DNA from: Pyrinomonadaceae bacterium
Lineage (GTDB): Bacteria > Acidobacteriota > Blastocatellia > Pyrinomonadales > Pyrinomonadaceae
Direction of reading: 5' to 3'
NCBI GenBank assembly: GCA_030841105.1
Contig: JAVEDE010000050.1
Location: 1 to 64,000, forward strand
Length of the DNA stretch: 64,000 bases
A program made the translations under genes and the position numbers. Shown piece after piece: positions 12,193 to 21,760 of this stretch. The notes under the pieces were generated by a model that was not told the DNA's origin, did not search any database, and was given only the letters and a program-made list of their open reading frames with translations. Position 1 is the first letter of the stretch; every line of letters starts with the position of its first letter.

Positions 12193-14463
12193 TTAGCCCG
12201 CGCGCTCCTGCAAATGACCGCCGCCACCGGCCGCTACACCCAGCGACGCGAAGCGCGGCTCGCGTTCGTTGAAATAACGCGTGAGAGCGTCTTCGAGCGG
12301 CGGGAGCAACTGCCCGCGCTCGCTCGCGAGTACGCTATATGATGGCCGCGGCGCGGCCAGTTGCATGAAGTGCGTCGGGCGCGCTTCGACCAGATTCGCG
12401 TCGAGTCCGGCGCGACGCGCGGCCGTGCGCGCCAGTTCCGCCCAATCGAGCGCGCCCTCGTTCGCCAGATGCCACACGCCGCGCTCGCCGTCCATCAAGA
12501 GATCGAGCGACGCGTCCACGAGATCGGGAACGTAAGTCGGTGAGACTTGCACGTCGTCCGCCGCGACGAACTTGCGCCCCTCGGCCAAAGTGCGGAGCGC
12601 GTTCGTGATGAAGTTGTGCTCGTCCCACGGGCCGAAGAACGCACTCGTGCGGATGACGAGCGCGGACGGCAGCAACTCCGCAACGCGCCGCTCGGCCTCA
12701 GCCTTACTTCGCCCGTACACGTTCAGCGGCGACACCGCGTCGCTCTCGACATAGGGACTTCCCTTGCGGCCGTCGAAAACCAGATCGGATGAGAACGTCA
12801 GCAACGCCGCGCCGCGCCGCGCGCACGCCGCGGCGAGCGTGGCCGCCCCGTCCGCGTTCTCGCGCATGCACCGCTCGGCCTCGCGCTCGGCGTCGTCAAC
12901 GCGCACGTAACCGGCGGCGTTGACCACCGCCCACGGTTCAAACTCCCCGAGCGCACGCTCGACCGAACGCGCGTCGGCAATGTCCATCTCCGCGCGCGTC
13001 AGGAGGCGGTAGGAGAGGCCGCGCCGTTCGCACAGACGCGCGAACGCGCGGCCGAGCGTGCCCGTCGCGCCGTTAATGATGAGCGGTCGTGCGCTGCCGT
13101 GTCTCATGTCGAGTCCCCTTTTCGCCGTCTCCTTCGTCGCGGGCTGGCGGCGCACCGGCGGGTACTGCAAGCGATCCAGACGACGCCACCAGCCGCGCGA
13201 ATCGAGCGCGGGATGTTCGTGGTCGCCCGTCGCGGCCAGATCGCGGAGCATGTGCGCAAGCGCGGTCGGGCGCGGACGGCCGCCGCGCACGTCGAAGACG
13301 CCCGGCTCGTACCTGCCCGCGCAGCGCGTGAGCAGGCTGCACCAATCGAACGCGCCGAGCAGCGACCACGCCGTCACCGCGCGCAGGTCTACGCCATCCT
13401 CGCGCCTGAGCGTCGCGGCCGCGTCCCACACCTCTTTGAACCAGCGCAGTTGCTCCTCGCGCGTGCAGCCGAGATGCACCTCCGTCACCGCGAGCGGAAT
13501 TTCGTAACGCTCCCACGCCTCGCGCAAGAGCACGCGCGGCCCGGCCGTTCCCTCGGCGCACACGCGCACCGCCTCCACGTCAACGTAACGCTGCCGCCCG
13601 TTGCCGCCGACCGCGCGGTCTGGATAACGTTCGACGCGCTCGTCCAAGAAACGCTCGCTCGTCAGGTAATGATTGATGCCGATGATGTCCGGCGGGCAGG
13701 AATTTTCGCCGAACCAGTAAAGCTCTGACTCTGCGATCCCGCAGCGGCGCGTGAAGTAATTCCACAGCGGATGCTCGCGCGTGACGCGCCCGCACAACAG
13801 ATCGAGACTCGCCCAGCGACGCACGTTCTCAAACTCCGCCTGATAGCGCAGCGCGCGCGTGCTGAAAGTCTTGCCGAGGTCTTCGGTCTGGACGAGCGTC
13901 GCGCGCGGGTTGATCTCACGGACGGCGCGCATCGCCAGCGCGGTGGCGCGACACTGGCCGACGAGTGCGCGCGCGAACGTCGCGGCGTCGCGCCCGTGCG
14001 GATACCAGTGGCCGTAGAGGCCGCTGAAGCGCGCGGTCGTCAGAGGCTCGTTGACGGGCGTGTAGGCATCAATCCACGGGTAGCGTTCGGCCACCGCCCG
14101 CGCGTAGGTTGCCAGTTGAACGGGAAAATCTGGAGCGACTAGGCTCGTATGTCGCGGCCCGCTGCCGTGGTGGAGCAGGCCGACGATGGGACGAATGTTT
14201 AACTCGCGCAGGCGCGCGAGGCGCGCGTCCGGCCAAGTCCAGTCGGCGCGCTCCAAGCCTTCGGGCGCGGTGCGCTCCCACAGGATGGGATAGCGCATCG
14301 CGCTGATGCCGAGTCCGGCGAAGAGCTCGAGGTCTTCGATGCGCTCCGCGTGTCCGTTGCGCTCAAGCTGATCGTAAAACTCGTCGCCGACGCGGTTGAC
14401 GGTACACTCGACGCCCGCCCACAGCTCAAGCGCCGAGGCGGGAAGAGGTTCTCCTCGGCTCAT
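12193..14463 (-). CDS. GH1-like glycosylhydrolase fused to RmlD-like sugar-nucleotide reductase domain
   Basis: 756 aa; N-terminal half GISAMRYPILWERTAPEG..YTPVNEPLTTARFSGLYGHWYPHG (GH1-like); C-terminal half INGATGTLGRAFARLCERRGLSYRLLTRAEMDIADARSVERAL..SSDLVFDGRKGSPYVESDAVSPLNVYGRSKAEAERRV (RmlD/SDR). Confidence 0.82.
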   Translation of the reverse strand: MSRGEPLPASALELWAGVECTVNRVGDEFYDQLERNGHAERIEDLELFAGLGISAMRYPILWERTAPEGLERADWTWPDARLARLRELNIRPIVGLLHHGSGPRHTSLVAPDFPVQLATYARAVAERYPWIDAYTPVNEPLTTARFSGLYGHWYPHGRDAATFARALVGQCRATALAMRAVREINPRATLVQTEDLGKTFSTRALRYQAEFENVRRWASLDLLCGRVTREHPLWNYFTRRCGIAESELYWFGENSCPPDIIGINHYLTSERFLDERVERYPDRAVGGNGRQRYVDVEAVRVCAEGTAGPRVLLREAWERYEIPLAVTEVHLGCTREEQLRWFKEVWDAAATLRREDGVDLRAVTAWSLLGAFDWCSLLTRCAGRYEPGVFDVRGGRPRPTALAHMLRDLAATGDHEHPALDSRGWWRRLDRLQYPPVRRQPATKETAKRGLDMRHGSARPLIINGATGTLGRAFARLCERRGLSYRLLTRAEMDIADARSVERALGEFEPWAVVNAAGYVRVDDAEREAERCMRENADGAATLAAACARRGAALLTFSSDLVFDGRKGSPYVESDAVSPLNVYGRSKAEAERRVAELLPSALVIRTSAFFGPWDEHNFITNALRTLAEGRKFVAADDVQVSPTYVPDLVDASLDLLMDGERGVWHLANEGALDWAELARTAARRAGLDANLVEARPTHFMQLAAPRPSYSVLASERGQLLPPLEDALTRYFNEREPRFASLGVAAGGGGHLQERAG

Positions 14464-17049: not shown

Positions 17050-17948
17050 AGTTTCTCTCGTAACCTCTCTCCGTAAAATGGCACACGACGAAGTCAAGAC
17101 TTTCGCCTTCTACCTTGCTTGAATATGCTCGACTCCGTTGGAGTAACCGAACACCTTGAAGTGGAAACCTGTCTCTAGCAGTTTCTACCGGGCGTTTAGT
17201 GTCTTCTAATAGCAAGCACTATGCCCTTGCGCGTCGGGGGTTTATGTGAGTGGTCAGCGCGTATGCACCGAGCCTGAAATTACGGGGGAAAATGCAACCT
17301 ACAGGAATTTCGACAAGCTGATCATAAGATTCCTTCTAACGAACGCATACATTGTTGATTGTACTGAACACGAACGTCGGAACAATCACCGTGTTATGTT
17401 TTTTTGACACTCAACTCATATCAACACAGCGTTGACTTAACGTTAAATTCCACGCGTTTCTTTAGAGTAAAAGAAAGGTGAGCCGTCATCTCTGGCGTAC
17501 TCACCTTCCCTGTCCCCCCTTGTTCGTTTAAGCCGTCAATCCCGCCGCGCTTCGATGAGTGCTCCGAGTCTTAACAACCCGCCCTCAACAGTCCGGCGAA
17601 AACTCCCGTTTCGGGTGCTGCGTAAAGACATTCGACCGAACCTGCAAGTCGGACAACTTTCACGCGCCACGCTGAACCAGTCCGTTAAATTTCTGCTATT
17701 AACCTTGTGCAAATGTTAGATGCGATTTTAGGGTGCATGCGCTTTAAAGTCTGTACGAAGTCGTACTAAATTTATGGAAAAATTGTGTTGAGTTCGAGCC
17801 GTTAAAAGCCTCTCCGGATGGACGAAAAGAGACGTTTGAAACTCGCACGCGCATGAGGTTTCGGGCGACGTGAAAAAATTAAGTTGACGTACCTAAACGT
17901 ACAGACAGACAAGATTCAGATTGCCTACATTACGCACATTCTACGCGT

Positions 17949-17997
17949 GAAAGAGCCTCCTCTTTCGGGGTTGCGGGCACTGAAAAGTCCGCAACCC
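17949..17997 (+). other. two adjacent stem-loops in the intergenic region upstream of a receiver-domain gene; first loop region reads CCTCCT
   Basis: GAAAGAG(17949-17955)/CTCTTTC(17960-17966) and GGGTTGCGG(17968-17976)/CCGCAACCC(17989-17997), both perfect. Confidence 0.5.
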
Positions 17998-18115
17998 TCT
18001 TCACAAAGTTGAAGGGTTCTGAATATCAACTTGTTGTTCGCCCTCTGCCGAGCTTGCAGAAGTTAATCCAACCTTCGCATCGTCCCGGCGAACTCTCGCA
18101 ACAGGAGGTCGCAAG

Positions 18116-18565
18116 ATGGAGCAACGAATCAACAAGGGCACGACGATCCTTGTCGCCGAAGACGACGAAGACAATCGCTTCACCCTGAAACTGCTTTTAG
18201 AGGTGCGCGGCTACCGCGTGTTAACGGCGGCGAACGGACGCGAAGCGATCAGCGTCGCCGAACGCGAACGTCCCGACCTCATCTTGATGGACTTGCGCAT
18301 GCCGGAGTTGAACGGCCTCGCCACCACGCGCCAACTGCGCCAGCACGCCGACGCGCGTCTGCGCCGGATTCCCATCTTCGCCCTGTCGGCCTACGATCCG
18401 GCGCAGCACCGCGCCGTCGCCATCGCCGCCGGTTGCGACGAGTATGTGACGAAGCCCATCAACTATGAACGACTGGAGAAGTTGCTCGAAACTTTCCTGA
18501 GCACGCCGCGCAACGCCCCCGCGCTGCCGGACGCCACCGCGCCGAACGACGTCCTCCACACGTAA
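18116..18565 (+). CDS. single-domain response regulator (CheY-like receiver)
   Basis: TILVAEDDEDNRFTLKLLLEVRGYRV..PDLILMDLRMPELNG..IFALSAYD..YVTKPINYERLEKLL. Confidence 0.92.
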   Translation: MEQRINKGTTILVAEDDEDNRFTLKLLLEVRGYRVLTAANGREAISVAERERPDLILMDLRMPELNGLATTRQLRQHADARLRRIPIFALSAYDPAQHRAVAIAAGCDEYVTKPINYERLEKLLETFLSTPRNAPALPDATAPNDVLHT

Positions 18566-18830
18566 ATCGTCCGGCAAGTAACCTTCATCGAGTTTGCCGA
18601 TGCGACGCCGCAGCCAGTGCGTGTGCGCCACAACCGGAGCACACGCGTCGTGCGCTTCCGACGCCGGGGCGCTCCACGCACTTCGTTAATCGCACCGACA
18701 CGATTCGTTATCAAACTCCGACTCCGCGACGGGTTGTTCCCATCCCGGCCGCACGTTAAGTTTTGCAAGCCGGATAGCGCAGGCATCTCAGGCTCGACGG
18801 TGTTATGATTGAGTTGCTCGAAGGGATGAT

Positions 18831-19241
18831 TTGATAATGGAAACGCAGGTTACAGCAGGACACGTTTTGCACGTCGAGGATCACGACGACACGCGCGTGT
18901 TGATGAGGCTGATGCTGGAGCAGGCTGGATTCACAGTGACCTCGGTCGAGTCGGGCGCGCGCTGTCTGGAACTGGCGCAGAGCGGCCGACGATTCGATCT
19001 CTACCTGCTCAACCACACCTTCCCGGATGCGTCCGGTGTCTCGATCTGCGCCTTGCTTCGCCAACTCGATCCGACGACCCCGATCCTCTTCTACTCCTCG
19101 CGCGCCATGCCGCAAGAGAAAGAGGCCGCCTTGAAGGCCGGCGCGCAAGACTATCTCATCAAGCCGAACGATCTGTTCCACGTCGCACAGCACGTCGCCA
19201 AGTGGATCAAGTCGAACCCGCGTCCGACAGACCCGAACTGA
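18831..19241 (+). CDS. atypical receiver-domain protein lacking the phospho-acceptor Asp (Asn in its place)
   Basis: HVLHVEDHDDTRVLMRLMLEQAGFTV..FDLYLLNHTFPDASG..ILFYSSRA..YLIKPNDLFHVAQHV aligned to the canonical receiver at 18116. Confidence 0.85.
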   Translation: MIMETQVTAGHVLHVEDHDDTRVLMRLMLEQAGFTVTSVESGARCLELAQSGRRFDLYLLNHTFPDASGVSICALLRQLDPTTPILFYSSRAMPQEKEAALKAGAQDYLIKPNDLFHVAQHVAKWIKSNPRPTDPN

Positions 19242-19296
19242 CGGACGCGACTTTCAGAGTCGCTCCACACCGGCGACCGTCAAGTTGTGAAATGAT

Positions 19297-19328
19297 GAGG
19301 GCGGTTAATCGCGAGGGCGGTTAATCGC
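19297..19328. repeat. two perfect tandem copies of GAGGGCGGTTAATCGC
   Basis: direct reading of 19297-19312 and 19313-19328. Confidence 0.9.
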
Positions 19329-19354
19329 GCGGCCTCTGCCTCCGCGTGTTTGGT

Positions 19355-19978
19355 TTATTGCTTCCGGCGCGAACCGGCGAGGTGCTTCGTCGGGTCTTCG
19401 GTGACGCTGAAATTTGGCGAGGCGAATTCAGTAGTGTCGCCGGAGTTTAATAAACGTGGCTCGGCATCAGTCCCTTGACCGTCCAACGTCCCCTGCTTAT
19501 TTTTCGACAACGATCTTCTGCTCTCGATTTCCACAATTTTTTTGCTGATGAAGGTGCCATTGATCATGATGCCGAGGCCGACGAGAAACGGGATCAAACC
19601 GGCGATCCAGATGCGGCTGAGAATCTCGTTGTCGCTGGGCGGGTTTTGGCCGCTCAGGATAATGCCCTGCATCAGGAAGAAGAGAAAGATCATCGCGCCG
19701 AGTCCGACGAGCGAGGTGATGACGCCCGCCTTGATTTCGTTATAGCGTTTCACCTCCGCCGTCACGCCCTTCTCACGCTCAAGCTGGTGATTGCGCCTTT
19801 GCCGCTCCTGCTCGGAGAGAAACATCTCTGCGACCCACGTCTTGCTCCAATCGAACTTCTCGCCCGCCGCCGTCTCGCGCGTCGCCACGGCCTGCCGCAC
19901 GGCCTGCAAATTCGCGCCGCACAAATTACAGAACTTCAACTCTTCGCTTTGATTCGCGCCGCATTGTGGGCAGAACAT
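19355..19978 (-). CDS. zinc-ribbon domain membrane protein
   Basis: MFCPQCGANQSEELKFCNLCGANL zinc ribbon; two hydrophobic segments. Confidence 0.8.
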   Translation of the reverse strand: MFCPQCGANQSEELKFCNLCGANLQAVRQAVATRETAAGEKFDWSKTWVAEMFLSEQERQRRNHQLEREKGVTAEVKRYNEIKAGVITSLVGLGAMIFLFFLMQGIILSGQNPPSDNEILSRIWIAGLIPFLVGLGIMINGTFISKKIVEIESRRSLSKNKQGTLDGQGTDAEPRLLNSGDTTEFASPNFSVTEDPTKHLAGSRRKQ

Positions 19979-21076: not shown

Positions 21077-21760
21077 TTATTGTTCCGACCACCCGTAGCG
21101 ACCGATGAGGGGGACGAAGGCGCACGCGCCGTGGTCTTCGCGCGCGTAGCCGTCAGCGTTGCGGATGACGCGGACGAGCCGTTGCGCGTCGCGCCGCTCG
21201 CCGACCGGCATCACGAGTCGCCCGCCGACTTTCAACTGCGCCATGAGCGGTTCGGGCACTTCGGGGCCGCCCGCCGCGGCGAGGATGGCGTCGTAGGGCG
21301 CATGTGCGCTCCAACCGAGCGTGCCGTCGAAGCACTTGACGGTGGCGTTGTAGATGTTGAGGGCGCGGATGCGCGACTGCGCCACGCGCGCCAGTTCGCT
21401 GATGCGTTCGATGGCGAGGACGCGCCCGGCGAGACGCGCGAGCACCGCCGTCTGGTAGCCCGACCCCGCGCCGATCTCCAACACCGAACTGTCGCTGTCG
21501 AGTTCCAACAACTCGGACATGCGCGCGACGATGTAAGGCTGCGAGATCGTCTGGTTGGCGGCGATGGGGAGCGCGTGGTCGCCGTAGGCATTGCCCTGCA
21601 AGGCTTCGGGCACGAAGTAGTGACGCGGCACTTCGCGCATCGCTGCGAGCACGCGCGCGTCGCGGATGCCGTGGTGCTGGCGCAGGTGTTCGACCATCTG
21701 GTCGCGCTGGCGGCGGAACGCGGACGTCTGCGCCGTTGGAATTTGTGATGCGGAACTCAA
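21077..21760 (-). CDS. pcm: protein-L-isoaspartate O-methyltransferase
   Basis: MREVPRHYFVPEALQGNAYGDHALPIAANQTISQPYIVARMSELLELDSDSSVLEIGAGSGYQTAVLARLAGRV. Confidence 0.95.
   Translation of the reverse strand: MSSASQIPTAQTSAFRRQRDQMVEHLRQHHGIRDARVLAAMREVPRHYFVPEALQGNAYGDHALPIAANQTISQPYIVARMSELLELDSDSSVLEIGAGSGYQTAVLARLAGRVLAIERISELARVAQSRIRALNIYNATVKCFDGTLGWSAHAPYDAILAAAGGPEVPEPLMAQLKVGGRLVMPVGERRDAQRLVRVIRNADGYAREDHGACAFVPLIGRYGWSEQ

Follow-up and report, generated by a model that had tools for sequence, protein, structure and literature searches.

The window, a stretch of 64,000 nucleotides of Pyrinomonadaceae DNA, encodes at 18837-19241 on the forward strand a stand-alone receiver-domain protein with Asn at the phospho-acceptor position. 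Judged from its sequence, it is an orphan, single-domain aspartate-less receiver, or pseudo-receiver, of the Asn type, a kind already described in many bacteria. The Asn receiver is real and conserved, and its most likely role, to which we give a probability of about 0.5, would be that of a phosphorylation-independent docking module or of a competitor or decoy. The preliminary description had proposed a pseudo-receiver working with the canonical receiver encoded by the neighbouring gene. The first part of that interpretation stands, since Asn is found in three of the four other full-length orthologues and the gene is under purifying selection; the partnership is not supported, the adjacency of the two genes being confined to one genus.

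The acceptor site and the receiver fold

The reading frame gives a protein of 134 amino acids from the ATG at 18837, or of 136 from a TTG at 18831. The ATG is the better-supported start, and we number the acceptor as residue 59 rather than 61 because, in the nearest orthologue (locus L059), no start codon precedes the ATG that matches 18837 in this frame. A profile search found a single PF00072 domain over residues 10-118 (80.3 bits against a cut-off of 30.2) and no output domain. The AlphaFold model (mean pLDDT 86.9, pTM 0.84) has the (beta-alpha)5 receiver fold, and the closest folds in the PDB are canonical receivers, several of them in the BeF3-activated form, so that profile and predicted fold both identify a receiver domain.

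In an alignment with 18 relatives and the neighbouring canonical receiver (18116-18565, forward strand; stand-alone, PF00072, 96 bits), Asn59 (codon AAC, 19011-19013), at the end of predicted beta-3 (residues 55-59), falls on the Asp of the Asp-type relatives and of the neighbour, with no gap nearby. It is the only one of the five catalytic positions to be altered. The acidic pair Glu14-Asp15 at the metal-binding DD positions (18876-18881), Ser87 at the conserved T/S position (19095-19097) and the conserved Lys109 (19161-19163) are as in canonical receivers, a pattern in which D is absent while DD1, DD2, T/S and K are present, and Pro63 (D+4), Gly67 (D+8) and Tyr106 (K-3, the Y-T coupling position) are kept as well. 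With Asn59 at the aligned Asp position, the protein is an aspartate-less receiver (ALR) in the sense of PMC4395418. The frame, the Asn codon at the phospho-Asp site and the retention of the acidic pair, Ser and Lys had all been noted in the preliminary description, and they are borne out by the sequence, the alignment and the confidently predicted fold. Realignment in search of another phospho-acceptor found none; Asp64 was ruled out, as it lies at D+5, beside the D+4 Pro, where the alignment is free of gaps.

Receivers in the genome

The PF00072 search of the genome gave 91 matches, and the acceptor position was read in about 91 distinct domains: 87 have Asp, and Asn, Glu, Ala and Gly occur once each. 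The Asp-less share, four of about 91 or about 4%, is close to the figure of about 4% published for receivers worldwide (PMC12632262). Asn is the second commonest ALR substitution worldwide, at 16%, and the Acidobacteria rank with the phyla that have the highest numbers of ALRs per genome (PMC4395418). The Glu, Ala and Gly cases either lack other catalytic residues too or match the profile only weakly or in part, which leaves the Asn receiver as the sole Asn case in the genome and its sole Asp-less receiver that is otherwise intact. A profile search for HATPase_c found no match on its contig (C67) and 52 elsewhere in the genome. The protein is therefore an orphan response regulator, in keeping with the earlier statement that neither a histidine kinase nor an output domain is nearby. 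A scan of 17300-19500 for promoters and terminators returned no terminator and one promoter-like site, over the start codon, where 0.8 would be expected by chance.

Conservation and history of the acceptor residue

Four other genomes, all of this family and in public records labelled Pyrinomonadaceae or Acidobacteria, carry full-length orthologues: G064 (96% identity), G063 (88%), G052 (72%) and G061 (63%). The acceptor codon is AAC in G063 and G052 and AAT in G061, all encoding Asn; in G064 it is GAC, encoding Asp, one base away from the AAC of the window gene (G000). Because Asn is shared with one other species of the genus (G063) and with two other genera, it is more than chance or an assembly error. 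The conservation of Asn, which had been suggested as a check, holds for three of the four orthologues and fails in the closest. The preliminary description had counted Asp in orthologues against its reading; Asp is what the nearest orthologue has, but not the clade, in which G064 is nested among Asn sequences.

A tree of 66 receivers unites the five orthologues in one clade (support 99/93), with G064 as sister to G000 inside it (100/89). The G064 sequence is a true orthologue, since the genes around it match the window at 93-99% in the same synteny. Most simply, Asn would be ancestral in the clade and G064 would have undergone a single reversion to Asp, because an Asp ancestor requires four separate losses. 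The Asp state was seen once, G064 and L059 being apparently one record (their contig coordinates agree), and it may be a base-calling error of that single assembly. The genomes compared are all incomplete assemblies, which weakens any claim of absence. One of them, G059, carries the C-terminal half of an orthologue (L048:1504-1707) just after a phospholipase-D-like gene; the N-terminal half with the acceptor site is absent, a rearrangement and an assembly join are both possible, and the fragment gives no acceptor state.

A proposed docking or competitor role

An acyl phosphate cannot form on Asn, and an output switched by phosphorylation of residue 59 is for that reason unlikely in this species. 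Pseudo-receivers do not catalyse Asp phosphorylation, and the mechanisms proposed for them include binding competition and the formation of heterodimers (PMC12632262). In the role that we favour, the receiver fold, with its metal-binding pair and its Ser, Lys and Tyr switch residues intact, would carry no acyl phosphate at position 59 and would presumably stay unphosphorylated. It would bind through its receiver surface to a partner encoded elsewhere, which could be a histidine kinase, an HPt domain or another response regulator. Its effect as a competitor or scaffold would depend on the amount of protein, probably through control of its expression level. That partners still read the receiver surface is suggested by the pocket, which is retained, and by the beta3-alpha3 segment, which is tightly conserved. 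The case for docking is drawn from these retained residues only, and the partner is putative. For part of the clade phosphorylation may be important, given the phosphorylatable residue of the G064 orthologue. It is conceivable, if rather improbable, that the protein is a reversible pseudo-receiver, in which selection would have preserved everything in the phosphorylation site but the acceptor, for use in a decoy or in a deamidation switch, and from which one lineage would have gone back by a single base to a phosphorylatable Asp, restoring canonical signalling.

Among known systems, RitR of Streptococcus pneumoniae (PMC4395418) resembles the window protein in being an orphan with Asn at the acceptor position (Asn53 in RitR). 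However, RitR also contains an output domain that binds DNA, and its pocket is altered at further residues (Lys10, Asp81), whereas the window protein is a single domain with the remainder of its active site intact. The pseudo-receiver of FrzS of Myxococcus xanthus is described as a protein-binding module (PMC12632262), which by that description is like the role proposed here, although FrzS is not an orphan and has a known partner, SgmX. CmrT and other atypical response regulators are considered to be competitors or heterodimer partners in two-component systems (PMC12632262), and as in the window, a pseudo-receiver is encoded beside a canonical receiver gene; CmrT, however, shares an operon with a sensor kinase, while the window protein has no kinase on its contig and its adjacency is not conserved.

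Alternative explanations

After docking or competition, we rank the other readings, in falling order of likelihood, as ligand or redox gating, near neutrality, a local pair and deamidation. A pseudo-receiver gated directly by redox state or by a ligand, as RitR is through a Cys dimer and others are by binding quinones or c-di-GMP, is an unlikely account of the window protein. Such direct mechanisms are known for other pseudo-receivers (PMC12632262), and the five orthologues all have Cys43 and Cys71; however, Cys71 and a Cys at position 43 occur in Asp-type relatives too and do not track with Asn.

The difference between Asn and Asp in two sister species might also be expected if the receiver were decaying or nearly neutral and the state of its acceptor immaterial. 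The substitution pattern makes this less likely still. By Nei-Gojobori counts, in which synonymous sites are saturated for the two distant genomes, dN/dS for the Asn receiver is 0.13 (G000-G064) and 0.15 (G000-G063). The beta3-alpha3 segment, FDLYLLxHTFPDASGV, is invariant in all five orthologues except for Asn or Asp at x, and Asn itself persists in orthologues as distant as 63% identity. Purifying selection acts on the gene, which is not decaying.

Lower again in our estimation stands the possibility that the Asn receiver is dedicated to the canonical receiver at 18116, with which it would form a heterodimer or which it would modulate. The two genes lie on the same strand, 271 bp apart, and the three genomes of the genus all preserve their order. 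Beyond the genus, however, each is found alone. In G052 and G061 the Asn receiver lies amid other genes, and a search at E <= 1e-40 found no orthologue of the 18116 gene; orthologues of the latter in G060, G059 and G133 (64-65% identity) occur in G060 and G133 without a full Asn receiver. Alongside the 18116 orthologue, the G060 block retains the radical SAM, SurE, PCMT, VTT-domain, glycosyltransferase and UDP-galactopyranose mutase genes; it lacks both the Asn receiver and the gene at 19355, so the adjacency is specific to the genus. That block is contiguous, so the absence is firmer there than incomplete genomes otherwise allow. The canonical gene also evolves faster than the Asn receiver (dN/dS 0.17 for G000-G064 and 0.36 for G000-G063). 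Co-occurrence, which had been suggested as a check on the partnership, thus speaks against it, and on this and on synteny we reject a functional pair. In the window, the UDP-galactopyranose mutase and glycosyltransferase genes adjoin a long open reading frame on the reverse strand (12193-14463), in which Pfam recognises a glycosyl-hydrolase-1-like part joined to an RmlD/epimerase part.

Least likely of all is a chemical switch in which Asn59 would deamidate to Asp, or to isoAsp repaired by PCMT, and so become phosphorylatable, with the Asp of G064 as the working end state: the other catalytic residues are all intact, a natural Asp orthologue exists, deamidation of Asn receivers to Asp has been raised (PMC4395418) and the window has a PCMT gene at 21077-21760, 1.8 kb from the Asn receiver, but that gene belongs to a surE-pcm block present in G060 without the Asn receiver, and no PCMT match was found in the G052 and G061 loci that contain the Asn receiver. 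We therefore regard the proximity of PCMT to the Asn receiver as a coincidence of synteny. Our literature search on deamidation and single-domain regulators found no closer precedent.

Related receivers

Searches of the class with DNA patterns encoding FDLYxxN and FDLYxxD drew in receivers mixed with unrelated proteins and served only to collect more relatives. Asp-type single-domain receivers of the same family with FDLYLLD..LPDGSG (L035-L041, L112) belong to the same subfamily, at 42-48% identity, and consist of the receiver only; they differ in keeping the acceptor Asp. The tree of 66 receivers contains two further Asn-type groups, both with additional site losses; of the Asn types in this analysis, only the group of the window protein keeps every other part of the site. 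In one of the two, an Asp receiver is followed in tandem by an Asn receiver (L167:4194-5068 in G129, L168, L169, L047 and L051; five genomes of two genera). The second acidic residue of the Asn copy is replaced by Ser, and in G129 and G130 a carA-like gene comes next on the opposite strand. This tandem pair is a better candidate for a system of canonical receiver and pseudo-receiver than the pair in the window. In the other, a small group marked by NRVCPDGLG (L036 in G140 and L050 in G116), the conserved Lys is changed to Arg or Gln, and the loci contain many hybrid kinases and receivers (L170, L171). Tandem receivers also occur in another family of the class, with Glu at the acceptor position of the second (L038:1507-2492, G155).

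Significance

How bacterial pseudo-receivers are switched on and off has been described as a mystery (PMC12632262). With about 4% of receivers lacking Asp here as worldwide, the Asn receiver is in most respects ordinary; the surprise, and the part worth following, is the return to Asp in its closest relative. The G000 and G064 proteins differ at six residues in all and the rest of the site is intact, so that this pair of Asn and Asp orthologues would provide a clean test of the role of the Asp and of the reversibility of the loss of phosphorylation.
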